Virus record (IMG/VR): IMGVR_UViG_3300032177_000079
Coordinates: 1-21,747 of that record
Source of the DNA: a virus
Length of the DNA: 21,747 nucleotides
Strand: one strand, 5' to 3'
How positions within the stretch are numbered: the first letter of the stretch is position 1; each line of letters opens with the position of its first letter. Position numbers and translations under genes: made by a program. The notes beneath the pieces are model-generated. The model was not told the origin of the DNA. It did no database searches and saw only the letters and a list, made by a program, of their open reading frames with translations. Below, in pieces: positions 7,924 through 19,754 of the stretch.

Positions 7924-8107
7924 GTATGGGAAGCTGATCGTTCCCAAGTCCGAGTACAACAAGTGGCTTCTGGCCCAGTTGAATCCACCATCGGGGGCGT
8001 TTGTCTCCTTCGGTGAATCAGTGGTTGTCGGTGACCGGATTGAGACGTACTACAATCTGGCCACCGATTTCCAGCCGGCGCCACCTCCGCCAGGAATCGT
8101 TATCTGA
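7904..8107 (+). CDS. Small hypothetical protein at the end of the structural block
   Basis: A 67-residue protein (MANILREYGKLIVPKSEYNK at the start). Its ATG has AAGGAG seven bases upstream and overlaps the preceding gene by 20 bp. The body has an SEYNKWLLAQ helix and a Pro-rich C-terminus (PAPPPPGIVI). There is no signal peptide or membrane segment. It is the last + strand gene, and its stop overlaps the 3' end of the convergent methyltransferase-like gene. Function unknown. Confidence 0.6.
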   Translation: MANILREYGKLIVPKSEYNKWLLAQLNPPSGAFVSFGESVVVGDRIETYYNLATDFQPAPPPPGIVI

Positions 8108-8855
8108 GGTCGATGATGCAAGGAGTGATGGGCTGGCCATCGCCGTCACTCCTGCTCTTCCTCTGCACCGTGGCGTAGACCACGGTGCCCTCGCGACATA
8201 GATCGACAATCTTCAGCCCCATGGTCCAGAGCCTGGCGTTGTACAGGCGGAAGTAGTCGTTGATATCGGCCACTGGGGACCCGAAGAACTCGCTGTATGT
8301 CTTGGTATGCAGCCAGATCTTGGACATAGCCGAGTCAACGAACCAGAAGTTGGGGCATGTCGACGCGCTCAGATTGGCCCACACGTCCCAGAGCAGGTCC
8401 TTCTTGACCGTCATCGCCGTGGGGTCAATATAGATGAGGTCGTACTGGTCGAAGAAGCGGGACTTGATGGCGGCGAGGTCGGCAAAGGAATCACGCGTAC
8501 GGGCCACATATACAGCCGACTCCCCCTCCCCATAGAACATCTCTTTCAGGGCGTCGCAGCAGTCCTTGTCGCGTTCCCAGAAGGCGTGGTGGAGCGCCTT
8601 GCCCAGCGTACGATCCATGCATTGGGCCGCCATGCCCAGCCCACCAAACGGGTGCAGGACGCTGTCGACATTGCTGAAGAACATCTTCGTGGCGCGATTG
8701 ATCGCCTCCATGTGGAGGAGGATGCCCTTGGTATTCTCCTGCAGGAACACCTGGTAGCCGACCTGGCCAACTCCCTTGGCGTTACCTGTCATTGGCACGC
8801 GCATGGGTGCCTCTAGTTTGGTCCCATCACGCAGCGTTATGGTCTGGAAGTCCAT
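8100..8855 (-). CDS. Putative SAM-dependent methyltransferase-fold protein
   Basis: A 251-residue protein starting at an ATG with a GAGAGGA site about 10 bases upstream, and 23 bp after the previous gene. HPFGGLGMAAQ (68-78) resembles the glycine-rich SAM loop (motif I) of class I methyltransferases. An acidic residue at the end of the next strand (AFWERD, E94) and YDLIYIDPTAM (138-148) at the motif IV position fit the same fold. The usual DPPY-type catalytic tetrad of N6-adenine or N4-cytosine methylases is replaced by DPTA, so it may be a divergent or inactive methylase, or act on something other than adenine or cytosine. It is last in the operon that begins with the thymidylate-synthase homologue, which allows a role in nucleotide or DNA modification. 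The fold call is moderate and the substrate is unknown. Confidence 0.45.
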   Translation of the reverse strand: MDFQTITLRDGTKLEAPMRVPMTGNAKGVGQVGYQVFLQENTKGILLHMEAINRATKMFFSNVDSVLHPFGGLGMAAQCMDRTLGKALHHAFWERDKDCCDALKEMFYGEGESAVYVARTRDSFADLAAIKSRFFDQYDLIYIDPTAMTVKKDLLWDVWANLSASTCPNFWFVDSAMSKIWLHTKTYSEFFGSPVADINDYFRLYNARLWTMGLKIVDLCREGTVVYATVQRKSRSDGDGQPITPCIIDLR

Positions 8856-8878
8856 TCTTGAAAATTCCTCTCGGAGAG

Positions 8879-9157
8879 TTAGAGATCAGGATTGATGTAG
8901 GTGCGACCAGGCTCGGCCGCTAGGTCAGCTTCGATGAGCTCGATGTACTTCTGCAGGAAATGCATGGCCTTCTTGAGGTCCTCAAGGCCATTCTTCTTCT
9001 TCCAGCGGGTCATGTACTTGATGACCTGCGCCTGGAAGTAGTCGAGGTCATTGGCCCACACGTAGTCCCAGTGCTGGATGGCCGTGCGGTAGTGCTTCCC
9101 ACCAACTTGCACATCGTTTGCACTAGTGCTTGGTGGATCCGTCGGGGTTGAAGTCAA
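8879..9157 (-). CDS. DUF3310 family phage protein (TTG start)
   Basis: A 92-residue protein containing the DUF3310 (SaV-like) signature: VGGKHYRTAIQHWDYV, then FQAQVIKYMTRWKKKNGLED and LKKAMHFLQKYIEL (about 17-78). This family is widespread in phages and often sits among nucleotide metabolism or replication genes. Its biochemical role is not settled. The start appears to be TTG: a strong GAGGAG lies seven bases upstream, and no ATG precedes the domain. A GTG at codon 16 lacks a ribosome site. The gene overlaps the end of the HD phosphohydrolase by 35 bp. Confidence 0.8.
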   Translation of the reverse strand: MTSTPTDPPSTSANDVQVGGKHYRTAIQHWDYVWANDLDYFQAQVIKYMTRWKKKNGLEDLKKAMHFLQKYIELIEADLAAEPGRTYINPDL

Positions 9158-9704
9158 CGATGAACTCCTCGATGTGAATGAATCGGTTAGATTTCAGCAG
9201 CTCCCACAACTCTATCGCCTGCGTATGACCCTTCAAGGTCGTGTTGAGCAGGTTCAAGCAGTAGCCGATGCCCCGTGACAAGATGGGGGCAAAGATCTCA
9301 TTGCCCGTAGCCATCTCCTCCACACCTTTGAAGCAGAGGTCCATCATGTCGGCATACTTCATCAGGGCGGCGTGCTGCTCTGTGATGGGGTAGCTCGTCA
9401 GTCCTCGCCGCTCCGATACCTCATCTTCGATCTTGTTGAGCATGGCGGCTAGCGGAGGATGGGCCCACTTGGTCGTGGCTGGTATGTCCCCCGTAGCCAG
9501 CTCAGCCGCGTCGTGGTGAAGCGCGTGCTTCACCAAGTAGAGAGGAGGCGCGTCGTCAAACAGGAAGAACAGTATGGCCATCACATTGCACGTATGGTGG
9601 CCAACTGTCTCGGGCTGGGACACGTATCCAACGGTGTGATACCGCTTGATCATGAAGGCCTCGCGGATGAACCCGTAATCAGCCTTCAGGGGTTTCTTCG
9701 ACAT
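9123..9704 (-). CDS. HD-domain phosphohydrolase, YfbR-like 5'-deoxynucleotidase
   Basis: A 193-residue protein with the metal-binding motifs of HD hydrolases: ETVGHHTCNV (H36/H37), ALHHDAAELATGD (H64, D65, E68, D73) followed by IPATTKW, and a later Asp in KYADMMD. The HD segment closely resembles YfbR, which dephosphorylates deoxynucleoside 5'-monophosphates. The start has GAGGAG about eight bases upstream and overlaps the thymidylate-synthase homologue by 26 bp, so they are co-translated. In this context it may remove canonical dTMP or another dNMP so the modified pyrimidine is used. Other phages use HD enzymes to deplete a canonical nucleotide, for example DatZ with dATP in S-2L. Family is confident; the exact substrate is inferred. 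Confidence 0.8.
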   Translation of the reverse strand: MSKKPLKADYGFIREAFMIKRYHTVGYVSQPETVGHHTCNVMAILFFLFDDAPPLYLVKHALHHDAAELATGDIPATTKWAHPPLAAMLNKIEDEVSERRGLTSYPITEQHAALMKYADMMDLCFKGVEEMATGNEIFAPILSRGIGYCLNLLNTTLKGHTQAIELWELLKSNRFIHIEEFIVDFNPDGSTKH

Positions 9705-10650
9705 TTGCCGCCCTCCTCTCGAGCCAGCTCACGCAGGCTTCCCGCCAATCTTCATCGAAGATATTGCGGGCGTGCACCATGGCTACATTGGGCTTGAACT
9801 CCTTATGGGCAACCCAGGCTTCCATCATGGGAACAGCGTTACGGGTGATGACATCGCACTTATACTGCTTGTCGGTATCCAGCCCGTGAAGCACGAACTC
9901 CCAGGCCTCATTGAGGTTGAGGCTGGTGGGTGACCAGACTATGCTGGCGTACAGGCGGTTCTTAGAGTACCACCGAACAGGTGGCCCGTACTTCCTCGTC
10001 CAGTCCTGATAGACGTGGAGGTTATTGGTCATCTGATAGTACGTCCCGGGAACCTTGCCGATGGCACTGGCCACGTACTCCTGCAGCAGAGACATGTGAA
10101 CCACGTTGGCCCCGAGAGCTCCCCATACGACGTCATTGCTGCGGTTGCAGACGGTCATGGTGAGTTGGTCGTTGACCAAGCGGAAGTACACGTGCGTATT
10201 GCACGGAAGGTCCAGGCTAGGCTCCCAATCCTTGTTGGGATCCCACATGGCGATGACAGCTCGCCTGGTCTTGGGGTCTTTCTTGAGGAGTTGGATAACC
10301 TCCTCGATTTGGTTGGTCATGAAGTTGCGGGCCCATCGGTGGCCATAGGCTCCGTTGAGTGAATGCCCATCATCACTGTAGTTCTTGAGGTTCTTGGCGA
10401 ACTGCGCCGGAAACCTCACGCTGTCGCTACCGGACATCATCCACAGAGCTTCCATGAAGTGGAAGAACGGGTTGGCATCGCGGATGGGGTCGAACAACAC
10501 GCGCCGGTTGGGATTCAGATGGGCGATAATGACCGGCTCCTGGAAGGCGTATGCCGGCCCATTTCGGGTATCCTCCAGGTGAGTGAAGTGATGCTGCATA
10601 GTCATCACTTCGTGATAGGCTTCGTTGACGTCAGCAAATGACCAGTTCAT
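9679..10650 (-). CDS. Thymidylate-synthase-fold enzyme, probably dUMP hydroxymethylase
   Basis: A 323-residue thymidylate synthase homologue, longer than bacterial ThyA (~264). Visible motifs are a conserved N-terminal block (RDANPFFHFMEALWMMSG, 57-74), SDDG followed by GAYGHRW (92-106), the catalytic Cys150 in DLPCNTHVYF, the phosphate/base loop RSNDVVWG (170-177) followed by ALGAN (N182), and NNLHVY (209-214). ThyA makes dTMP. Phage relatives such as SPO1 dUMP hydroxymethylase make 5-hydroxymethyl-dUMP with the same fold. The RSND...GANVVHMS version of the loop looks like the phage modification type, and a 5-hmdU kinase-like gene lies nearby, so I favour hydroxymethylase. Ordinary dTMP synthesis cannot be excluded. 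The start overlaps the upstream stop (TAATG). Confidence 0.85.
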   Translation of the reverse strand: MNWSFADVNEAYHEVMTMQHHFTHLEDTRNGPAYAFQEPVIIAHLNPNRRVLFDPIRDANPFFHFMEALWMMSGSDSVRFPAQFAKNLKNYSDDGHSLNGAYGHRWARNFMTNQIEEVIQLLKKDPKTRRAVIAMWDPNKDWEPSLDLPCNTHVYFRLVNDQLTMTVCNRSNDVVWGALGANVVHMSLLQEYVASAIGKVPGTYYQMTNNLHVYQDWTRKYGPPVRWYSKNRLYASIVWSPTSLNLNEAWEFVLHGLDTDKQYKCDVITRNAVPMMEAWVAHKEFKPNVAMVHARNIFDEDWREACVSWLERRAANVEETPEG

Positions 10651-10895
10651 TAGCGGCTCCAGAGAGTACGGAAACGGCCAGGAGAATCGATGTACACGCG
10701 TACCTGGCCAATGGTGAGACGAACGCTTACGATGTCCACCCCACGGCTGGTATCGTGGATCACCATGGGGATCTTGGTGGAGATGACTTCCGCCATGGTG
10801 GCGCGGAGCGCGCTACGGAGACTGTAGTAGCGACGCTTCTTGTTCACCCTGCCGGAGTTTGGTACGAGAAGGAGGTTACGAGTGCTAGACTTCAT
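10650..10895 (-). CDS. Small unknown protein leading the thymidylate-synthase operon
   Basis: An 81-residue basic protein (MKSSTRNLLLVPNSGRVNKK at the start). The chosen ATG has GAGG six bases upstream; the in-frame GTG four codons earlier lacks a site. The body ends in beta-like sequence (VRLTIGQVRVYID, then SPGRFRTLW). The strongly positive N-terminus could bind nucleic acid, but no domain is recognised. It is the first gene after promoter P3, with a leader of about 34 bases, and its stop overlaps the start of the thymidylate-synthase homologue (TAATG). Confidence 0.6.
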   Translation of the reverse strand: MKSSTRNLLLVPNSGRVNKKRRYYSLRSALRATMAEVISTKIPMVIHDTSRGVDIVSVRLTIGQVRVYIDSPGRFRTLWSR

Positions 10896-10935
10896 GAGAT
10901 TCCTCACTAGAACACGGCGGTATGCCGTATCTACT

Positions 10936-10977
10936 ATTATAACCTGTATACGCTACGAGGTAAAGTCCACTACGTTC
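10936..10977 (-). promoter_or_regulatory. Promoter P3 (repeated sigma70-like phage promoter)
   Basis: On the - strand, TTTACC (10964-10959) is followed by a 17-bp spacer and a perfect TATAAT (10941-10936). The -35 lies in a conserved block (10957-10977) shared with P1 and P2: GAACGTAG followed by TGGACTTTACCTC. It should start transcription near 10929 and serve the 81-aa protein, thymidylate-synthase homologue, HD hydrolase, DUF3310 and methyltransferase-like genes. Confidence 0.85.
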
Positions 10978-11153
10978 GTGAATAGTCGCTCTGAAAACCG
11001 TCCCTCGGAGGATATTCCACGAAAGGCGCGGGGTAGGGTACGGGGCTTTCTTTCAGGGAGCGTGTTCTAACGCTCTAGAACCAGGTTTAAGGCCTGGCCC
11101 GGCGGCGCGGCTAGGGGTAGCCTACCCTAGCCGCTGGCCAGTTTTCTAGAGCG
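10978..11153. other. Structured intergenic region with cruciform potential
   Basis: Together with P3 this fills a ~258-bp gap between the 81-aa gene and the hypermodification gene. Perfect 14-bp arms CTAACGCTCTAGAA (11067-11080) and TTCTAGAGCGTTAG (11144-11157) enclose two more hairpins: a perfect 10-bp stem GCGGCTAGGG/CCCTAGCCGC (11107-11134, 8-base loop) and CCAGG/CCTGG (11081-11097). The right arm includes the stop codon of the upstream gene. A G-run cluster (11030-11058) lies next to it. No U-tract follows the stems in the - direction, so it is not a textbook intrinsic terminator. It could separate two transcription units, protect RNA ends or act in replication. No convincing ORF was seen. 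Confidence 0.7.
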
Positions 11154-11975
11154 TTAGGGCTTGCCCCACCCGTCATATCTTCCCCGTGGGACACCCTGCC
11201 CGAGCTTGGTACGCATGTACTTGTCAAACTCGCACAAGCAGTTCTGGATGTCCTGCAGGCAGAGGTTGGTCTTCAGTTGAGACGCCAGTTCCCTCATCTC
11301 CTCTAGCCCATCTTCCTGACTAGGCTGGAAGTTGATGGGACGATCGTACAGACGGTTGAGTCCTCGGCTAGACCCTGGCCCAAGAGAGGCCCAGGTATAC
11401 CAGTCTGGAGCATCGCGTAGAATGGAGGTCCGCTTGAGATCCGCCAGTACCTGGCCCGCCATGAACGATCCCACCCCATTGTACTCCACGAGAGTATTGA
11501 ACGTATCCTCCAGAGTATAGTGTATATGTGGGGGTCTGGTGAAGTACTCGTTCGCGTTATCGGTCACGAGAATATTCTTCGGAGACCTAGACCCATACTG
11601 CGATACCATATAGGCGCCAGTATAGACCTTAACACCGCGAGCCTTGCGCGACTCCAGGCACTCGAAGACGCGCTCCTTGCTCCAGAGGATGGGGAACCCC
11701 AACTCCTCCAGAGTATCGGGCCAATTGATCGTACGGCCCAGGATAATGGCAGGCACGAAGTTCTTCTCCTGCCAGTATTTCGGCTGGCGCCAGTTCAGGG
11801 CGAACCAGCGAGTGACTCGGTCGTGCTCCCGGCTGACATTGCAGAACTTGAACTGCTGCAGGATGGGGTCGTGAGTCCAAGGCTTGGGCTCCCCAGCTTC
11901 CTTCTGCACACGAATCCGCTCACGCTCAGACATCCAGTAGCGGAGGTCCTCTACTGCGTTATTGTTCAGAGGCAT
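11154..11975 (-). CDS. Thymine hypermodification protein, 5-hmdU kinase helical / aGPT-PPlase-like family
   Basis: A 273-residue protein. PWTHDPILQQFKFCNVSRE and HDRVTRWFALNW (32-62), and near the C-terminus LCEFDKYMRTKLG with VPRGRYDGW, match the signature I associate with the phage 'DNA base hypermodification' families. These are the 5-hmdU DNA kinase helical domain and the alpha-glutamyl/putrescinyl thymine pyrophosphorylase clades defined computationally by Iyer, Aravind and colleagues. Such proteins act on phosphorylated 5-hydroxymethyluracil in DNA and are distantly glycosylase-like. The gene overlaps the P-loop kinase by 17 bp, which suggests the two work as a pair. In some phages the two domains are fused in one polypeptide; here they would be split. 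Family is fairly confident. The exact clade and reaction are not settled. Confidence 0.72.
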   Translation of the reverse strand: MPLNNNAVEDLRYWMSERERIRVQKEAGEPKPWTHDPILQQFKFCNVSREHDRVTRWFALNWRQPKYWQEKNFVPAIILGRTINWPDTLEELGFPILWSKERVFECLESRKARGVKVYTGAYMVSQYGSRSPKNILVTDNANEYFTRPPHIHYTLEDTFNTLVEYNGVGSFMAGQVLADLKRTSILRDAPDWYTWASLGPGSSRGLNRLYDRPINFQPSQEDGLEEMRELASQLKTNLCLQDIQNCLCEFDKYMRTKLGQGVPRGRYDGWGKP

Positions 11976-12534
11976 GGTAAAGGTCCAGTAGTTTGAGGCC
12001 AGGGTTGCGATGATTGATCACCGCCGTCTTGCGAACGGGGCACTTGTCACCATGGTCGAGCCGGTACTTCAGCCGGATGATGGCCCGGTACTTGTCGATG
12101 GTATTGTCCGGATTGAAGGCAGTCTTCGTACCGCGAGCCTCGCGCCGCTTGATGACTCGCTCCAGGCACACCTCGAGAGGCGTGTCCAGGAAGGCGAAGA
12201 CGTGATCGTCGCCGAATTGCTCGCTGGCCGTGCCGATCCTCCCGTAGAAGCCCGATTGGAGCAGCCCCTCGTAGAAGACGTGTCCCTGCGGGCCATACTT
12301 GAGAAGAAGCGCGATATGATCATCGGCCTCACCCAGAGCATCCAAACCGCCACAGGTAGTCTCGTACGGGCCCAGGATGAACAGGGGCTTCTTGAGGTCA
12401 GGGAGTTGAACACGATACCCCTCGGGGCGATTCTTGAAGATGGGAAGGGGATAACGTGGGGCTCCAAAGCTCATTAGTTCGCGAGCTGCGGTAGTCTTGC
12501 CGGAACCGCTAGTTCCGTGTAGCTTTATCAGCAC
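11959..12534 (-). CDS. P-loop kinase, putative 5-hydroxymethyl-dU DNA kinase
   Basis: A 191-residue P-loop NTPase. The Walker A motif GTSGSGKT (7-14) sits at the very N-terminus, with a later VFAFLDTPLEVCLERVIKRR segment (Walker-B-like strand plus Arg-rich lid) of the nucleoside/nucleotide-kinase type. The start is GTG, decided by GGAGG six bases upstream, and overlaps the helicase end by 26 bp. In phages with hypermodified thymidine, a P-loop kinase phosphorylates the 5-hydroxymethyl group of 5-hmdU within DNA, giving the leaving group for later steps. The overlapping hypermodification-family gene directly downstream makes this the most likely role. A deoxynucleotide kinase acting on free hmdUMP is the main alternative. 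Confidence 0.7.
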   Translation of the reverse strand: MLIKLHGTSGSGKTTAARELMSFGAPRYPLPIFKNRPEGYRVQLPDLKKPLFILGPYETTCGGLDALGEADDHIALLLKYGPQGHVFYEGLLQSGFYGRIGTASEQFGDDHVFAFLDTPLEVCLERVIKRREARGTKTAFNPDNTIDKYRAIIRLKYRLDHGDKCPVRKTAVINHRNPGLKLLDLYHASEQ

Positions 12535-13870
12535 GAATAGCCTCCATGAAGTTGCGTTGAGTAGCTGCTTTGTCGAGCAGTGTTCTTGCTACGGAGAAGT
12601 CGAGGGTTCCACCGGCGAGTATTCGGTGAACGAAAACTCGATTTGCATTTTGGCCTTGTCTCCAGACACGCTTGTACGATTGATGGTATAAGTCAAGATC
12701 CCACGTGAGCCCGTAGAAGCACACATGGTGGCAACTTCCTTGGAGATTAAGTCCATGACCGGCCGAAGCAGGATGTCCAAGTAGGACTGGTATATCCCCT
12801 GCATTGAAGGCGTCGATGGTGGCATCAAGTTTACTTCCAGACATTCCGGTGAGGCAGGGGGCGTCTTTGAAGACACGGCGTATCCTTTCGAGGTCGTGCT
12901 GGAACTCGTAGAAGCATAGTAGGGGATTGCCCTGTAGTTGCTCCACCAAGTCGTTCAGGGCAGCGGTCTTGATGTCGTGTATGAAATGGTACATGTGATT
13001 CTGGTCATACACGCCTCCATTCGCCACCTGTCGGCACTTGCTCCCCGAGGCGGCTGCGTTGACGCTGAGGATAACCGCGTCTCCCACCTCCGCCAGGAAC
13101 TCGTCCTCGAAGTCCTTATAGATCTGGCGGGACTTCTCATCGAGATCTACGACGATGTCGTTGAATATGAGCTCGGGCATGTCCAAGTGATCTTCAGCCG
13201 ACAGGCGCATCACGTATGGGCGGATACGATCCTGAATACGCTCTGCAGCGCCAGGCTGAAGCTTGTAGTCGTATCCCCCATAACCCGTCTGCATGAAGTA
13301 CTGGGCCCGGAAGTGAGTGATATACCGGCCCAGGGCCTGCCCCACGTCCATGATGTAGCACTGGCCAAAGAGGTCCATGTAGCCGTTGGGAGCTGGCTCA
13401 CCCGTTAGGATCAGCCTACGTTTGAAGTAAGGCAGAGCAGGCTTGATCAACTTGAATCTAGCTGTCGAGTAGTCCTTGAACTTCGTGGATTCATCGACCA
13501 CCAGCATGTCGGGATCTAGCTTGCGAAGCCCGCCGCTAGTGACCAGCCACTTCAGCCCCTCGGGGTTGATGAGGTAGATGTCGGATATCTGATCCAGCGC
13601 CCGTTCCTTGTCATCCCCATGTAGGATCGTATAGCTGAGGTGGCGGAACTCGTCCCACTTCTTGATCTCATCGGGCCATACCTTGTACATCGGCCTGATG
13701 GGGGCGATGATGAGCACGCGCTTCACGTGGTCCGTCTTGCGAAGGTGCGTGATGCAGGCAAGGGTCGTAGACGTCTTGCCCATGCCAGGATCTAGAAAGA
13801 TCCCAGCATTGCAGTTCTGAAGGATGAACTTCAGAGCATCAAACTGATACGGTTTGGGAATCCAGTTCAC
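12509..13870 (-). CDS. SNF2/superfamily 2 DNA helicase
   Basis: A 453-residue SF2 helicase of the SNF2-like phage type. Motifs in order: N-terminal Gln site (PYQFDALKFI), Walker A DPGMGKTS (27-34), motif Ia LIIAPIRPMYKVW, motif II DEST (126-129), motif III LTGEPAPNG (155-163), motif V HPASAGHGLNLQ (366-377) and motif VI QSYKRVWRQGQ (397-407). It should be an ATP-driven DNA translocase acting in replication, recombination or repair. The start is GTG inside the preceding stop (GTGA), with GGGGA six bases upstream. It sits between the two hypermodification-family genes, so it may also expose DNA to modifying enzymes, but that is inference. Confidence 0.92.
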   Translation of the reverse strand: MNWIPKPYQFDALKFILQNCNAGIFLDPGMGKTSTTLACITHLRKTDHVKRVLIIAPIRPMYKVWPDEIKKWDEFRHLSYTILHGDDKERALDQISDIYLINPEGLKWLVTSGGLRKLDPDMLVVDESTKFKDYSTARFKLIKPALPYFKRRLILTGEPAPNGYMDLFGQCYIMDVGQALGRYITHFRAQYFMQTGYGGYDYKLQPGAAERIQDRIRPYVMRLSAEDHLDMPELIFNDIVVDLDEKSRQIYKDFEDEFLAEVGDAVILSVNAAASGSKCRQVANGGVYDQNHMYHFIHDIKTAALNDLVEQLQGNPLLCFYEFQHDLERIRRVFKDAPCLTGMSGSKLDATIDAFNAGDIPVLLGHPASAGHGLNLQGSCHHVCFYGLTWDLDLYHQSYKRVWRQGQNANRVFVHRILAGGTLDFSVARTLLDKAATQRNFMEAIRADKATRN

Positions 13871-14070
13871 GATTTGTCCCCAGAGAGCAGGTTATGTCCT
13901 ACTGCGTAAGTCTCCCAGCCCTCCTTTGCCCTGGCAGTAAGGAACTCCCAGGCTGTGTGGTCACTTTTTACTAACACTACGTCGTGCGCCGTAGGAAAGT
14001 GGCAATCGGCAGGAATCATCCTTACGTATTTGGGGTTTTTACGTTCGTAGAGCATTTGTCCGGGACTCAT
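13867..14070 (-). CDS. Small unknown protein between hypermodification gene and helicase
   Basis: A 67-residue protein starting MSPGQMLYERKNPKYVRMIP. The ATG overlaps the upstream stop (ATGA), and its own stop overlaps the helicase start (GTGA), so translation of three genes is chained. The sequence is compact, with a conserved look in PADCHFPTAHDVVLVK and a C-terminal WEFLTARAKEGWETY helix. No known domain was recognised. Its position between a pyrophosphorylase-like protein and a helicase allows an accessory or adaptor role, which is only a suggestion. Confidence 0.65.
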   Translation of the reverse strand: MSPGQMLYERKNPKYVRMIPADCHFPTAHDVVLVKSDHTAWEFLTARAKEGWETYAVGHNLLSGDKS

Positions 14071-14939
14071 TCCAGCTCGCACGTAAAGGTGGTGAGAAGG
14101 AAGTCGTCGGGGAACATCATGATCATCTTGCTGGCCTTGTCCCCGTAGCCGATCAGCGATTTGCGCTTGTCCAGTACGTCATCACCCACGATGTGATTGC
14201 CGTACTTGGCCCGCTTCCAGTCGCACAGGATTGTCTCCACCTCGGCCGGCCCGATCAGTCGGTCGAAGAGAGGTGGGGCCAATAGACCAAGCGGCTTTAG
14301 CCTCTCACACGTCGCCTCAAAAGCACGAGCAACGACCTCGTTGGGGTAGAGCAGAGACGCGGCCTGGGCCGGTAGGGTGGGCAAGTTGATACTCAGCCCT
14401 GCGTAGTTGGTGATGGTCAGCCCAAGGCAGCGATCCATGTAGTCGCAGATCTTCAGGACGAAGTAAGACCCGAACCCGATGAGGTGCTTCTCGCAGTGCT
14501 TCATGACTTGATAGTACGTCCTGGGCATTTGCGTGAAGAACAGGTCAGGATCGGGGCTATATGCCCGCATGGAGGCCAGGCTACGCAGGCCCTGCGCTCC
14601 TCGCCAGTGCCGCCGTTCAGCTGCTCGCGGGGCCGTGGGATAGTGGCTGACAATGAAGTCCCAGAAATCGTCCCCTTCGTTATCGGCTGCCATCGCCGCC
14701 GTTCCCGTGTGGTAGAACGTGAGCATGGCCACAGCAAAGCGGGTAGCCCATCCGTTACCGAATGCGTCGCGAGCCCGGTAGATGGCGAAGTAGACCGGAT
14801 CGATGTCGCCCGTGTAGATGTCTACCCGCGCGAACTCTTCAAAGGTTCTGATTCTTTGCGGTAATACGGTCGATTGCAGCGCACCCGTCGCGCTCATTAT
14901 CGACCAATTCAACTGAACAACCGAACTTTCTGAGGACAT
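14067..14939 (-). CDS. Putative thymine pyrophosphorylase / amino:DNA transferase (aGPT-PPlase clade 2-like)
   Basis: About 290 residues with the chosen start. Motifs resemble the alpha-glutamyl/putrescinyl thymine pyrophosphorylase clade 2 family: ERRHWRGAQGLRSL (108-121), GFGSYFVLKICDYMDRC (155-171), INLPTLPAQAASLLYP (184-199) and VETILCDWKRAKYGNHIVGD (234-253). In characterised or predicted phage pathways, these enzymes replace the phosphate on 5-phospho- or pyrophospho-methyl-dU in DNA with an amine such as an amino acid or putrescine. Start: ATG at 14939 has AGGAG ten bases upstream. An ATG at 14897 is possible but has no site. Either overlaps the VRR-NUC gene. The match is from memory of family motifs, so family is moderate and substrate unknown. 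Confidence 0.65.
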   Translation of the reverse strand: MSSESSVVQLNWSIMSATGALQSTVLPQRIRTFEEFARVDIYTGDIDPVYFAIYRARDAFGNGWATRFAVAMLTFYHTGTAAMAADNEGDDFWDFIVSHYPTAPRAAERRHWRGAQGLRSLASMRAYSPDPDLFFTQMPRTYYQVMKHCEKHLIGFGSYFVLKICDYMDRCLGLTITNYAGLSINLPTLPAQAASLLYPNEVVARAFEATCERLKPLGLLAPPLFDRLIGPAEVETILCDWKRAKYGNHIVGDDVLDKRKSLIGYGDKASKMIMMFPDDFLLTTFTCELE

Positions 14940-15138
14940 TGTGGATATACTCCTGGAGTTTGCGAGGCTTCTCGCCCAGACGTTTGACTTCCATGAACAG
15001 CACGTGTGGCCCTGGTGCAATGAATAGGCGGTCGGGCCAGCCCCGCCTACCCATGACGTTCAACTTCAGACTCAAGCAGCCGTTTGCCTCCGCGTACTCG
15101 TGGATCTTGGTCTCTACAACGTTTTCTAGTACGGGCAT
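14839..15138 (-). CDS. VRR-NUC domain nuclease
   Basis: A 99-residue protein covering a minimal VRR-NUC fold of the PD-(D/E)XK group: N-terminal Glu in ENVVETKIHEYA, then GRRGWPDRLFIAP with the catalytic Asp, then LFMEVKRLGEKP with E-x-K, and a C-terminal helix ending in an IDRI segment. Phage stand-alone VRR-NUC proteins are thought to cleave branched or flap DNA. The ATG lies six bases after the TATAAT of promoter P2, so the P2 transcript may start on or next to this codon. The only Shine-Dalgarno-like sequence (GAGG, 12 bases upstream) lies within the promoter and would be used only by read-through RNA. Confidence 0.88.
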   Translation of the reverse strand: MPVLENVVETKIHEYAEANGCLSLKLNVMGRRGWPDRLFIAPGPHVLFMEVKRLGEKPRKLQEYIHNVLRKFGCSVELVDNERDGCAAIDRITAKNQNL

Positions 15139-15144
15139 ACAGGT

Positions 15145-15186
15145 ATTATACCTCAAACTAGGGCGGAGCTAAAGTCCAATACGCTC
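15145..15186 (-). promoter_or_regulatory. Promoter P2 (repeated sigma70-like phage promoter)
   Basis: On the - strand, TTTAGC (15073+100 to 15068+100, that is 15173-15168) is followed by a 17-bp spacer and a perfect TATAAT (15150-15145). The conserved block (15166-15186) reads GAGCGTAT followed by TGGACTTTAGCTC. It overlaps the stop codon of the Cas4-like nuclease gene by two bases. It should serve the VRR-NUC, pyrophosphorylase-like, helicase and kinase genes. Confidence 0.85.
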
Positions 15187-15835
15187 AAAACTGGCACGGC
15201 CCACCGTACTTCTTAGAGTAGTCGCACCATTTGCAGGCGCTGCCGGCGCGAGTTGGGTAGATCTTGTCGTCCTCAGCGTTCTTGATCCGCCCATCTAGCA
15301 TCATCCTTATGGGCTTGACGCGATCAGCTGGCGTGCAGACAGGCTTGGCGATGATGCCCTGGTCGATATAGATGGCGCGGCTGCGGAACTCCGTCGCTTC
15401 TGGGTGATGGGCCGCAGCGATAGCCACGTAAGTGGCCAATTGGTCAACGTGGGTGTCGTAGATCTGCCCCGTCTTCCTGTCCTGCACGTGGATGATACTG
15501 TCTTCAGGGTAGATAATGTCGATGATGGCCCTGAGATAGACGTTTTCATCTTCCCACTGCAGCGGCTCCCATTTGTCGTTGACCGCCAACTTCTGCTCAG
15601 GTACAGCATTGCGCGCCTTGAGCATCATGGTATGGCCCGACACCTTCTGGAACTCCGGCGGATAGAGCTTGATCTCGTTGAGCAAGTAGAGTTCCGCCTG
15701 CTTGTGGAGTTCCGTCCCACGGCTGGCAGCTGGCCCAGGCTCGCGTGAGCCGGGCAGCTTCTCGATGTAGTTGTACTGATACGCCCTGGGACACTCTTCC
15801 CATGTTTTGAGGCGGCTGTAGCTCCAAGGTCTCAT
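15185..15835 (-). CDS. Cas4/RecB-like PD-(D/E)XK exonuclease with probable Fe-S cluster
   Basis: A 216-residue nuclease. The RecB-like motifs are SYSRLKTWEECPRAYQYNY (5-23), GTELHKQAELYL (40-51), the catalytic Asp106 in RAIIDIIY, D-x-K in VQDRKTG (119-121), and QLATY (132-136). Four cysteines, Cys15 near the N-terminus and Cys201, Cys204 and Cys214 at the C-terminus (CKWC...GGPC), are spaced like the 4Fe-4S ligands of Cas4 and AddB. It should be a DNA exonuclease used in recombination or host DNA degradation. The start overlaps the ligase stop (ATGA). It ends the P1 segment, just before P2. No CRISPR array or other cas gene is present, so it is a phage recombination-type enzyme. Confidence 0.9.
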   Translation of the reverse strand: MRPWSYSRLKTWEECPRAYQYNYIEKLPGSREPGPAASRGTELHKQAELYLLNEIKLYPPEFQKVSGHTMMLKARNAVPEQKLAVNDKWEPLQWEDENVYLRAIIDIIYPEDSIIHVQDRKTGQIYDTHVDQLATYVAIAAAHHPEATEFRSRAIYIDQGIIAKPVCTPADRVKPIRMMLDGRIKNAEDDKIYPTRAGSACKWCDYSKKYGGPCQF

Positions 15836-16698
15836 GTGTCTTCCTTCATACGGAATCCTTTGAATACGGGATGCCGCGGTTTGTCTTTAATACCGATGGG
15901 GAGATACTCGTAGGTGATGAGAGAGCCGATGAGTTCGTGTCGCTTGCGCCAAATGGAAGCTCTATCCTCAGCGGTGAATCCGGTTCCAACGTTGAATTCC
16001 ACGCCTGCGTCACGGACAACAAGGGCTCCAAGTACTCCAGTTGGCACGAGGTTAGCTTGATGACTTGACCGTTCAGTGTAACCGAGATTGTCCATCTTCG
16101 CTTCGTTTGCATTGTGCATTTGCTCCACAAATCCGATGATAATCGCTTCGCTGGTCTTGCGCCGCTTGAGCTTGAGTAGTGTCCCCTCCCGTGCGGTGGC
16201 GCGTCCGAACTTGTACGCTCCTTCGGGATCACGAAGCATCAGCCCCTCGTAGCCGTGGGACAGCGCCGCATCTTCCAGGTAGTAGAGCTCAGCTTCCGTC
16301 TCCACGAACTTGTGGGGCAGGTGGATGATGGAGGAGTTGTTGCAGTAGTGGGTCGATTTATCCAGCCGATCCACAAACCTATCATCGCTCACCAAGTCAA
16401 AGACGTAGTACCGGAGGTCCTGGATATCGCCACTATGCGACATCACGGCCTTCATAGTGTCCCTGAACACGCTGGGGGAGGTGGGCTCCCCCAGGATCAG
16501 CTCGCCGTCGAGCGGAGCTAGGATGTTGAACTTGTCGTTCACGCTGCGATTGGGCAGAAGCTTCAGGCTTCGCGTCCTGAGTACTCCATCCAGCGAGGTA
16601 GCCCTCACCCCGTCCAGCTTGGGGCTGACGAGTAGAGGGAACTTCAGGTTGCCTAGGTTGGCGTCGTCCGCCAGCATCGGCTTGAAATCTTTGATCAT
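15832..16698 (-). CDS. ATP-dependent DNA ligase
   Basis: A 288-residue ligase. The nucleotidyltransferase motifs are in order: SPKLDGVRA (active-site Lys27 in KLDG), LDGELI (63-68), YEGLMLRDP (150-158) and LLKLKRR (174-180). A C-terminal OB-like region (GALVVRDAGVEFNVGTGF) follows. It is shorter than T7 ligase (~359 residues) but has the full catalytic core. It seals nicks during phage replication and repair. The start is the ATG at 16698, with GAGG seven bases upstream and an ATGA overlap with the radical SAM stop; the open frame continues upstream only inside that gene. Confidence 0.92.
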   Translation of the reverse strand: MIKDFKPMLADDANLGNLKFPLLVSPKLDGVRATSLDGVLRTRSLKLLPNRSVNDKFNILAPLDGELILGEPTSPSVFRDTMKAVMSHSGDIQDLRYYVFDLVSDDRFVDRLDKSTHYCNNSSIIHLPHKFVETEAELYYLEDAALSHGYEGLMLRDPEGAYKFGRATAREGTLLKLKRRKTSEAIIIGFVEQMHNANEAKMDNLGYTERSSHQANLVPTGVLGALVVRDAGVEFNVGTGFTAEDRASIWRKRHELIGSLITYEYLPIGIKDKPRHPVFKGFRMKEDT

Positions 16699-17759
16699 GG
16701 CATTACCTCGACATACTGGTAGATTGGGGAGTTCAGCACTTCGATCGGAACTTTGTAGTCCTTGATGCGGGCGTCTATCAATAGCCCCATGTAGCGGATG
16801 AGATCGCATATGGGGTCAGTGACCTTGGCCGCGTACTCGCTATCCTTGTCCACGTAGCCGATGTGCAGGTTCTTCAGGCAGTTGCTCTTGCACCATTCAA
16901 AGGCTGAGCACTTCCAGCAGGGCATATCCGGATCCTGCTGGAGTTTGCTGTGGTAGAGCTCGTTCTCCTGTATTGAGCCCATACGCAGTTCCTTGCGGTA
17001 CAGCATATCGGGGCATGGATAGATGTCCCCATTGGGCATTACGTTGAGCAGGTGAGTTGACGTCCTGCACTGCGTATCAAATGGGGCAAGATCAGGCCGG
17101 AGCTTGTTACGTACTGTACCCATGATGGGGACGATACGCAGCAGCGCCTTGGTGTCAAAGTACTTCGCCACCAGCTCATCCAGCAGTAGCTTCATCTTGA
17201 TCACGTATTCGGGCGAGTACGCCTCCCCTGCCACGAACTGGAAGTAGACGTAGTCGAAGGAATGCAGAAGATCGGTGATATCCTGGGCCGTGATGTCCGG
17301 ATCAGACAGCGTGACTCTAGCTGTTAGAAGTCCCGAGATATGGGGCCGGATATGCTCCACGTTGGCCATCACCTGATCGAACACGCCCTCACCACGATAC
17401 TTGTCGGTGACGTGCCGGTTGCCATCCACGCTGACGAGTATGTTGTCCATGTACTCGATCAGCGTGGGGGCCATCTTATGCAGGAGCGTGCCGTTGGTCT
17501 GCAGCTGGTATCCCCAAAAGGGATAGAGCTCGATTATGTCGGCCATGAACTTGTGGTTCATGGTCGGCTCCCCGCCGTAGAAGGTCACGTAGACGCCTAC
17601 CCCATCTAAGAACTTGTTGACGAAGGCGTCCAGTTGCTCGTACGTGTACTCGATTGGCGTGGGTACTGGGCTACGCGTCCCACCCACTTCCTCGCTGCAG
17701 TACGAACACTTGAGGTTGCACTGCAGCGTGGTGAGAAGTTGAAGCTCAATCTTCTTCAT
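16695..17759 (-). CDS. Radical SAM enzyme with SPASM domain
   Basis: A 354-residue protein. The radical SAM cluster motif is CNLKCSYC (C14, C18, C21), followed by YGGEP (61-65). The C-terminal region fits the seven-cysteine SPASM pattern: Cys231, 12 residues, Gly244, four residues, Cys249, then Cys281-x2-Cys284-x5-Cys290-x3-Cys294, and Cys318. Such proteins carry three 4Fe-4S clusters and usually modify peptides (sulfatase or RiPP maturases) or act in cofactor synthesis. No precursor peptide or sulfatase is visible here. In phage M6 a radical SAM enzyme is implicated in rearranging an amino acid attached to thymine. With the hypermodification genes nearby, DNA-base remodelling is the best guess. 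It overlaps the polymerase end by 14 bp. Confidence 0.9.
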   Translation of the reverse strand: MKKIELQLLTTLQCNLKCSYCSEEVGGTRSPVPTPIEYTYEQLDAFVNKFLDGVGVYVTFYGGEPTMNHKFMADIIELYPFWGYQLQTNGTLLHKMAPTLIEYMDNILVSVDGNRHVTDKYRGEGVFDQVMANVEHIRPHISGLLTARVTLSDPDITAQDITDLLHSFDYVYFQFVAGEAYSPEYVIKMKLLLDELVAKYFDTKALLRIVPIMGTVRNKLRPDLAPFDTQCRTSTHLLNVMPNGDIYPCPDMLYRKELRMGSIQENELYHSKLQQDPDMPCWKCSAFEWCKSNCLKNLHIGYVDKDSEYAAKVTDPICDLIRYMGLLIDARIKDYKVPIEVLNSPIYQYVEVMP

Positions 17760-19548
17760 TGTAGCCTTTCAGATCAGCCCAGTTAGCCCCGTACTCGACC
17801 TCCGCCCGGAAGGGGACATCCCAGCCAGCCTGATCTTCCATGCTAGCCTTGATCTCCTCAACCTCATGGGCAAGAAGGTTAGGGTTGACAGAATACACGT
17901 TTTCATCGTGGACGGTAGCCAGGAACCTGCGGTGTTTAGTCTTGTAGCCGCAGCGATTGACTGCCTCCTTCGTTTGATCTGCAGCACTCCCTTGGATGAG
18001 GTGATTAAGAAGCTTGTACTCAAAGCTCCACATCCCTCCATTGACCATCTTCGGCTTTTCAGCATAGATATGCCTCCCACCCCACGTTTTGACCGACATA
18101 CCAGCCCGGCCTCGCTCACTGACGTCTTCCATCAACTCCTGGAAGCCGGGCAGAGCATCGAAGTAATGCCTCTTGATGTTTGCGGCCGTGGCCCGATCAA
18201 CGCCAAGCTGTTCAGCAAGGGAGCTGATGCCTGCGCCGTAGATCAGGCTGAAGCCCGTGATCTTTACATCCTTGCGCGGCAGGTTCAGGCCCGCTTCTTC
18301 CCGAATGATCTCGGATACGACTTGGTGGAAGTCTGCACGAGGGTTCGTGCGATAGATGTCAGCAGCCCTCCCTTCGGCGAAGTGGGCCGCGATACGCATC
18401 TCTTGCCCGTTGAAGTCGGATGACACCAGCACGTCCCCCTCATCCGGTAGTATGTATCCTCGCATAATGGGGAGCGAGGGGAACTTATCCGGAGGAGTAC
18501 CCTTGAACTCCGTGGGAATGTTCTGGAAGTTGGGATTGGAGCTCGAGAGACGGCCCGTGCGCGTACCGTAGAAGTCACCCCGTACCTGATTGAACTGCGG
18601 ATGTAGGCGACCGTTGTTCTCCGCACCGATCCTGGCCCATGGCCGCATGAAGGTGGTGAGGATGGTCTTGAGCTGCCCCCGGTAGTTGATCAGCTGGACT
18701 AGGATCGGATCTTTGATAGCTGCTGCAAGAGAGTCCTTGCTTGTTGAAATCCTCCCGGTAGGCGTGCGAGCGAAATCAGTTTCTCGCGCACGTCCAGATC
18801 TAAGTAGTGCAGCGGCCAGTTCTCCAGAGCTATCTGGATTACAGTCGCCGATCTCTTCAATAAGCCGAGTTGTGATGCCGCCATAGATACCCTCCCAGAA
18901 TTGCAGGTCGAATTGCAGCTTGTTGAGATCAATGCGGATTCCATCCCGCTCGTTTTCCGTGAGGATGGGGGCAAGGATCTGCTCCCGGCGGTAGGCCGCG
19001 AGCATACCGTTTTTGTTGACGAAATCGATCAGCGGCTCATAGAGCTTGCGGGTACGGAAGGTATCGCCGCAGGCGTACTCACCCACCAGTTCCCCTGGGG
19101 CCTTGCTGATGTGCGCACCCCAATCCTTGCCGCTGTAGCCCTGCATGGCCAGGTAGTTCCTGAGCTTGGTCTGCTCATCAGGCGCGATGCCCAGGATACG
19201 CTCGGCCGACGGCTTGAGGCTGAGTGAGTCGGCATGCGCGTCGTAGAGATAGAGCAGGTACATCGTGTCGTGGATTCGGCGAGCATCCTTGGGGTACGGC
19301 AGGCCGAACCACTTGTGCGCCACCTCCATGTCGAAGCGCGCGTTGTGCATGAGGAGTTCCTGATCCCATATGGCGGACAGGACTCGCTTGGCCTCCTCGT
19401 ACGTGCAGTTGTTACCGGTGGGGTGGCCCCATGCCAGATAGATCGGCTGCTCAGCGATGGCGTACCATATGCTGACCCCGACTGGCTTGGGAGGGTAGTT
19501 TGGGTGCGGAAGGATAGCTTCCGTCTCAAAGTCAATGCATGTAATCAC
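17746..19548 (-). CDS. Family A DNA polymerase (3'-5' exonuclease plus polymerase)
   Basis: A 600-residue replicative polymerase of the Pol I/T7 type. The exonuclease motifs are CIDFETE (Asp6, Glu8), HNARFD (Asn69, Asp73) and YACGD (Tyr158, Asp162). The polymerase motifs are the TGRLSSSNPNFQNIP region (331-345), motif A VSSDFNGQE with Asp378, motif B RKDVKITGFSLIYG (Arg425, Lys429, Phe433, Tyr437) and motif C ATVHDEN (His547-Asp548-Glu549). There is no 5'-nuclease domain, as expected for phage enzymes. The start is GTG at 19548: it forms a GTGA overlap with the upstream stop and lies just before the first exonuclease motif. The longer open frame (to 19725) is upstream overlap without domain content. 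Confidence 0.95.
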   Translation of the reverse strand: MITCIDFETEAILPHPNYPPKPVGVSIWYAIAEQPIYLAWGHPTGNNCTYEEAKRVLSAIWDQELLMHNARFDMEVAHKWFGLPYPKDARRIHDTMYLLYLYDAHADSLSLKPSAERILGIAPDEQTKLRNYLAMQGYSGKDWGAHISKAPGELVGEYACGDTFRTRKLYEPLIDFVNKNGMLAAYRREQILAPILTENERDGIRIDLNKLQFDLQFWEGIYGGITTRLIEEIGDCNPDSSGELAAALLRSGRARETDFARTPTGRISTSKDSLAAAIKDPILVQLINYRGQLKTILTTFMRPWARIGAENNGRLHPQFNQVRGDFYGTRTGRLSSSNPNFQNIPTEFKGTPPDKFPSLPIMRGYILPDEGDVLVSSDFNGQEMRIAAHFAEGRAADIYRTNPRADFHQVVSEIIREEAGLNLPRKDVKITGFSLIYGAGISSLAEQLGVDRATAANIKRHYFDALPGFQELMEDVSERGRAGMSVKTWGGRHIYAEKPKMVNGGMWSFEYKLLNHLIQGSAADQTKEAVNRCGYKTKHRRFLATVHDENVYSVNPNLLAHEVEEIKASMEDQAGWDVPFRAEVEYGANWADLKGYNEED

Positions 19549-19754
19549 GGGCGACCCGCTGCGTAGGCCACGCATATGGCGTCGCCGGAGGACGCTGTCA
19601 TACACCGCACGGCTATGGGCTCGTTGCCGGCTCGCACCATGCCCTCCTGTATGTTTGCCATGTTCACGTTGTAGATTGTAATGCATACCATCAGTAGCGC
19701 AATGGTAGCCAGGCAGCCCATACAAAGATACAGCCAGAACTTGTTCTCATCCAT
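19545..19754 (-). CDS. Small single-pass membrane protein
   Basis: A 69-residue protein (MDENKFWLYLCMGCLATIAL at the start). One strong transmembrane segment spans about residues 6-29, followed by a polar domain with two cysteines (NEPIAVRCMTA...GDAICVAY). It resembles small membrane proteins seen in many phage replication regions, whose role is unknown. The chosen ATG has GGAG six bases upstream; the in-frame GTG four codons earlier overlaps that site. The stop overlaps the GTG start of DNA polymerase, so it is coupled to the replicase. Confidence 0.72.
   Translation of the reverse strand: MDENKFWLYLCMGCLATIALLMVCITIYNVNMANIQEGMVRAGNEPIAVRCMTASSGDAICVAYAAGRP

Follow-up and report, generated by a model that had tools for sequence, protein, structure and literature searches.

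Known hypermodifications of thymidine are tailored by pyridoxal phosphate (PLP) enzymes, flavin adenine dinucleotide (FAD) enzymes, acetyltransferases and radical S-adenosylmethionine (SAM) enzymes. The cassette of phage SN1, which is 97% identical to Pseudomonas phage M6, encodes a hydroxymethylase, Nmad5, aGPT-Pplase1, a kinase, a radical SAM enzyme, a PLP enzyme and aGPT-Pplase2 (PMC9476957), and the M6 kinase acting on 5-hydroxymethyldeoxyuridine (5-hmdU) in DNA has been published as well (PMC6449724). In phage phiW-14, the route leads from 5-hmdU triphosphate (5-hmdUTP) to a pyrophosphoryl intermediate within the DNA, and the putrescinyl group is labelled by ornithine (PMC5977210). The locus considered here is a stretch of viral DNA of 21,747 bases that makes up one entire IMG/VR entry (IMGVR_UViG_3300032177_000079, hereafter the window), in which end repeats were not detected and which is probably a fragment. 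Its minus strand carries a cassette comparable to that of M6, together with a gene for a protein of 251 amino acids, MT251 (8100-8855). On balance, the window is best read as encoding a minimal M6-type amino acid-thymidine pathway in which methylation by MT251 would be the tailoring step and a radical SAM enzyme would be accessory.

Structural genes occupy the plus strand up to ~8.1 kb, and the minus strand carries a replication and modification operon that extends from 21.7 down to 8.1 kb. The first-pass annotation had placed five genes of a predicted thymidine hypermodification pathway on this one strand, and the thymidylate synthase-fold enzyme (TS), the P-loop kinase (KIN), its helical partner (HEL), the amino acid:DNA transferase (ADDT) and the radical SAM enzyme (rSAM) are indeed intact minus-strand open reading frames (ORFs) at or near the positions given there, with family support that is strong or moderate. 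TS (9679-10650), a TS-fold pyrimidine (dUMP) hydroxymethylase by family, is matched by PF00303 (3.9e-21) and phrog_5131 (1.2e-90), and its closest sequence in the PDB is a CMP 5-hydroxymethylase (1.6e-25). At its catalytic cysteine, PCN replaces the PCH of thymidylate synthase, the first tryptophan of the folate site is missing when it is aligned with a true thymidylate synthase, and both PCN and the asparagine of GxN are invariant across seven cassette homologues. Such residue changes favour hydroxymethylation over methylation. A canonical thymidylate synthase was rejected on account of PCN and of the closest PDB match, both of which point to a hydroxymethylase.

HEL (11154-11975) belongs to the HMUDK_hel family (also aGPT-Pplase1), the helical partner of the 5-hmdU DNA kinase, with a PF18723 match (3.3e-43) of 148.5 bits against a cut-off of 25 and 40% identity to M6 gp55. 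Directly before it, as in M6, lies the 5-hmdU DNA kinase-like KIN (11959-12534), which matches AAA_33 above cut-off (29.6 against 27 bits) and phrog_800 (1e-14), and whose GxxGSGK motif is invariant in an alignment with M6 gp54 and five others. The kinase family that includes KIN and gp54 is labelled “terminase small subunit” in PHROG 800 and in several GenBank records, which looks like a misannotation. ADDT (14067-15020), or aGPT-Pplase2, is supported by PF18724 (8.1e-9; 36 bits against a cut-off of 26.2) and phrog_6364 (8.9e-47), and the alignment reveals invariant residues common to the homologues of phiW-14, M6, P26218 and Pam3; its start as listed is a TTG, with an ATG at 14894 and further ones downstream. 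The cassette also comprises MT251, a YfbR-like HD-domain 5'-deoxynucleotidase (HD; 9123-9704, minus strand; PF12917, 7.2e-13) that follows TS as gp59 does in M6, and the usual cassette neighbour, a DUF3310 protein (8879-9157, minus strand; PF11753, 8.3e-8), whose position is kept in most relatives.

When considered side by side, the window and M6/SN1 share the TS-fold hydroxymethylase, the HD protein, the DUF3310-type neighbour, the split P-loop kinase and HMUDK_hel, and ADDT; the set corresponds to M6 gp51, gp54, gp55, gp58 and gp59, and the order kinase-HEL-TS-HD is kept. Judged by its families, the core gene set is thus an ordinary M6-type core, and its assembly is far beyond chance, given the many phages in which these genes reappear in an unchanged order. 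The proposed logic of 5-hmdU formation, phosphorylation in DNA and substitution by an amine is borne out to the extent that all four enzyme families (hydroxymethylase, kinase, HMUDK_hel and ADDT) have matches in the window and lie together there, just as they do in M6-like phages. Two features that had been taken as signs of novelty, by comparison, turn out to be standard: the split kinase and helical genes reproduce the M6 layout (gp54, gp55), and the “two transferase-like proteins” are HEL (aGPT-Pplase1) and ADDT (aGPT-Pplase2), again as in M6. The idea of two separate transferases was rejected, since the two proteins belong to different Pfam families and represent different enzymes of one pathway. 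Among the Pfam models named in the first-pass annotation, PF18723 and PF18724 found their proteins, and PF18746 matched neither of the transferase-like proteins up to E = 1, a negative that is qualified by the HMMER filters, which discard most weak matches.

The window differs from M6 in what surrounds this core: a PLP enzyme, a gp53-type rSAM and Nmad5 were not detected, whereas MT251, an rSAM of another SPASM subfamily and an ADDT from a separate clade are present. MT251, the final gene of the early operon, had been overlooked in the first-pass annotation. Its AlphaFold2 model (predicted local distance difference test, pLDDT, 85.6; predicted template modelling score, pTM, 0.87) retrieves SAM methyltransferases as top Foldseek matches, tRNA and rRNA enzymes included (Trm1, 2dul, E 2e-8; RsmD-like YhhF), and is thus predicted to have the class I SAM-dependent methyltransferase fold, in a family that is undescribed. 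Searches of Pfam, PHROGs and NCBIfam gave no significant match, to DNA methyltransferases or otherwise. The fold is of the Rossmann type with a glycine-rich motif I; FxGxG, an acidic motif II and D/DxxxxT are kept in 28 members, and the conserved positions are F70, G72, G74, D96, D139, T149, D174, K179, L182, Y187, F191, Y201 and G213.

In a survey based on ADDT, MT251 homologues were found in 15 of 88 loci, each near HEL, TS or ADDT. A scan of viral contigs with a profile and peptides of MT251 alone returned 25 loci, ten of them on contigs unseen in the ADDT scan, and the cassette stands beside MT251 in all except one (24/25), where the contig (L108) ends inside the gene. ADDT itself is present in 22 of the 25; two further contigs, L092 and L095, begin within the cassette and carry KIN, HEL and TS. 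Divergent members (L015, L019, L035, L036 and gp39 of Pam3) join the family by profile comparison (hhalign 99.1%, against A5), which brings the total to 30 distinct loci, 29 of them with the cassette. The family spans two phage lineages plus the cultured cyanophage Pam3. Neither a tblastn search of named phages nor a scan of 84,980 prokaryote genomes, the latter made with a single pattern and hence of limited sensitivity, turned up an MT251 homologue. Within the cassette, the gene occupies at least five slots (before ADDT, between SNF2 and KIN, between KIN and HEL, between HEL and TS, and after HD/DUF3310), and its presence on the ADDT tree requires no fewer than five changes along branches with good support. 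One family that is found at varied slots of one cassette, and was not found outside it, is what would be expected of a pathway enzyme, and the modified base that MT251 helps to make is probably a new variant.

MT251 might instead be an ordinary adenine or cytosine DNA methyltransferase, or act on some other substrate, and be connected with the cassette only through a shared anti-restriction benefit. Its generic class I fold, for which the top structural matches are methyltransferases of tRNA and rRNA, would fit such a role, and the target cannot be read from the sequence; however, it lacks a match to any DNA methyltransferase in the three family collections, all loci long enough to be judged lie in cassettes, with none found elsewhere in the searched phages and prokaryotes, and a methyltransferase of the ordinary anti-restriction kind should also occur where there is no cassette. 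We regard this explanation as rather unlikely. A minimal system of the ordinary M6 or phiW-14 type, with an untailored amino acid-thymidine and with MT251 and rSAM as mere passengers, is more improbable still. It agrees with the five closest ADDT relatives of the window (L009-L013), which have the minimal core alone in the sequence covered, and with the position of the phiW-14-like ADDTs adjacent to the window clade, but the exclusive linkage of MT251 to the cassette at multiple slots is hard to reconcile with a passenger.

Two observations concern the MT251 family more broadly. Pam3 is the sole cultured phage found to carry a member, the divergent gp39 (L006, 13967-14593). In some lineage 2 members that are MT-free (L017, L018, L021, L029), the MT251 slot upstream of ADDT is taken by another gene, pyrimidine-dimer glycosylase-like by eye; it was considered as a divergent MT251 and rejected for want of a profile match.

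A megablast comparison of named phages with the window gave no match. IMG/VR likewise yielded nothing when ADDT or rSAM was used as a single-sequence query, and alignment queries were required; that of ADDT returned 80 IMG/VR loci. The closest, L009-L013 (ADDT identity 49-59%), reproduce the window operon wherever the contig covers it: PolA, ligase, PD-DExK, VRR, ADDT, SNF2, KIN, HEL, TS and DUF3310. In the window, the family A DNA polymerase (PolA; PF00476, 2.9e-56) lies at 17746-19725 on the minus strand, the VRR-type nuclease ORF (14839-15156) overlaps the ADDT ORF, and the SNF2-type helicase (12509-13870, minus strand; PF00176, 7e-16; phrog_62, 1e-133), within the cassette operon, is kept in podovirus kin. 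In the ADDT tree, the window and L009-L013 group together (100/100) as part of a larger clade, made up of 25 podovirus-type rows, and a separate clade of 37 rows includes M6 and every cassette with FAD, PLP or gp53-type rSAM genes. The phiW-14-like ADDTs branch beside the window clade.

Among named phages, the top ADDT match is phiW-14, a Delftia phage with alpha-putrescinylthymine, at 32.7% identity (31% over the alignment); this is too distant for the same amino acid donor to be assumed, and in phiW-14 the homologue resides in a 157-kb genome with no comparable cassette alongside in the 40 kb examined. Rhodoferax phage P26218 resembles the window in its small podovirus-type genome and in having PolA, a VRR-type nuclease, the SNF2 helicase, ADDT, kinase, TS and HD in the same order, whereas HMUDK_hel, MT251 and rSAM were not found there. 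HMUDK_hel was not detected in any of the podovirus-type lineage made up of P26218 (L005) and its like (L063, L065, L067, L068, L073, L085), in which ADDT, kinase and TS are present; this suggests that these phages either replace the helical partner or do without it. In a second lineage (L017, L018, L020-L023, L026, L034, L037, L039, L041, L111), two tandem kinase-like genes lie between ADDT and HEL, and the product of one of them may phosphorylate 5-hmdUMP as a nucleotide kinase. Pseudanabaena phage Pam3 has a complete M6-type cassette as well as its MT251-family gp39, but also possesses PLP and gp53-type rSAM genes, and its MT gene lies 5.4 kb from ADDT.

The radical SAM/SPASM enzyme (16695-17759, minus strand; PF04055, 2.1e-14; SPASM, 6.9e-5) lies between the polymerase and ligase genes. 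Judged by its sequence, it is a complete enzyme, with the CxxxCxxC motif at C14, C18 and C21 and the seven-cysteine SPASM pattern (C231-x12-G-x4-C249; C281xxC284x5C290x3C294; C318). The first-pass annotation had counted it as a member of the pathway, and it could be conceived as the tailoring enzyme, giving a new product on aminoacyl thymidine as the M6 rSAM does. Its gene overlaps its operon neighbours, with an ATGA overlap at the ligase start, the SAM site and both auxiliary-cluster cysteine sets are intact, radical SAM enzymes are used in M6-like cassettes (PMC9476957), and SPASM-type rSAMs occur in the cassettes L030, L049 and L050. The comparison with relatives nevertheless argues against membership. 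The interval between PolA and ligase in L009, L010 and L012 holds no gene of rSAM size, and, among 50 records searched, PF04055 has no match in any podovirus kin, the ~41-kb ones included. The closest homologues of rSAM, which form a close clade in a profile scan, are found in a 222-kb viral contig (L134, 50%), a 101-kb viral contig (L133, 41%) and the chromosomes of betaproteobacterial genomes (L212, L213, L214; 45-51%); beyond this clade, full-length matches do not exceed 28%. HMUDK_hel and ADDT were not detected in any of these five, with the PF18723 model detecting the window HEL and the ADDT profile detecting cassette loci as controls. The rSAM subfamily therefore exists without the pathway.

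Matches to NCBIfam, namely to TIGR04084 and to peptide maturases, show full-length similarity to TIGR04084 (AF0577) and PapB-type radical SAM/SPASM enzymes, with all scores under curated cut-offs (TIGR04084, 3e-40 and 138 bits against 225; PapB-type, 2e-28 and 99.5 bits against 340), and no peptide precursor context is seen around the gene. The SPASM rSAMs of L030 and L049 belong to different subfamilies. We thus consider rSAM an unlikely tailoring enzyme, and it figures in the preferred reading, with MT251 as the tailoring enzyme, as an accessory gene that would have been recently gained; it may have been recruited into the pathway here. Several observations bear on the subfamily itself. A C-terminal tail, Y-x-(Y/F)-V-E-(V/I)-(M/I)-P, reaches the last residue and is kept in the window, L133, L134, L212 and L213. 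The SPASM-type rSAMs of other cassettes, all from different subfamilies, lie at 13815-14840 (L030), 8829-10025 (L049) and 7991-9157 (L050), those of L049 and L050 close to a FAD gene, and those of L030 and L049 were not picked up by the window rSAM sequence. Matches in human-gut “phages” have the look of SCIFF-type peptide maturases and were not counted among the phage kin, and the plasmid matches are distant, some of them in transporter or peptidase contexts. Adjacency to a cassette does not automatically make a radical SAM enzyme part of it.

The lack of a PLP enzyme had been offered as a sign that the product differs from those described. Among the scanned window proteins, no PLP or Nmad5 match was found, and the record being a fragment, the absence of a PLP gene from it shows little; yet PALP and DAO genes were not found in the ~41-kb kin of the window either (M6 and PaMx11 were positive as controls), which makes a product different from that of M6 plausible. 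MT251 is more likely than rSAM to be the reason. Among ADDT loci, FAD, PLP, gp53-type rSAM or GNAT genes accompany 31 of the 66 that are MT-free and 1 of the 27 that bear MT.

Some points weigh against methylation by MT251 as the tailoring step of such a pathway. The split between MT and FAD/PLP/gp53-type rSAM genes largely follows the ADDT clades, and is descriptive rather than independent evidence of a shared step. MT251 lacks the canonical (D/N)PP(Y/F) motif of N-methyltransferases, and is missing from the five nearest ADDT relatives, L009-L013, in the sequence that their contigs cover; it is therefore not essential. KIN reaches 21.2 bits with PF18748, the 5-hmdU DNA kinase model, below its cut-off of 27, and the P26218-like lineage without a detectable HMUDK_hel means that the enzymes do not always share the work in the same way. 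Tailoring genes could also lie outside the fragmentary record.

From the families, the gene order, the fold predicted for MT251 and the linkage of this gene to the cassette alone, we infer the following chemistry. TS would make 5-hydroxymethyl-dUMP, with the HD nucleotidase probably assisting in the shift or editing of the nucleotide pool, and the phage PolA would incorporate 5-hmdU. KIN and HEL would then (pyro)phosphorylate the hydroxymethyl group in the DNA, and ADDT would displace the (pyro)phosphorylated group with an amino acid, which MT251 would finally methylate at its amine or carboxylate. This last step would replace the tailoring that M6-like phages carry out with PLP, FAD or gp53-type rSAM enzymes, so that, in the most economical reading, the amino acid-thymidine of the window ADDT clade would be methylated, not decarboxylated or oxidised. 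That MT251 is the founding member of a family of methyltransferases that take part in DNA hypermodification and act on amino acid-thymidine in DNA, with an undescribed N-methylated or methyl-ester aminoacyl thymidine as the product, is a tentative proposal with a little less than an even chance of being correct. The pathway as such is already known, and the new element is the methyltransferase-fold family found exclusively with it; if the proposal is true, MT251 would add a new tailoring step to thymidine hypermodification and a new nucleoside to DNA.

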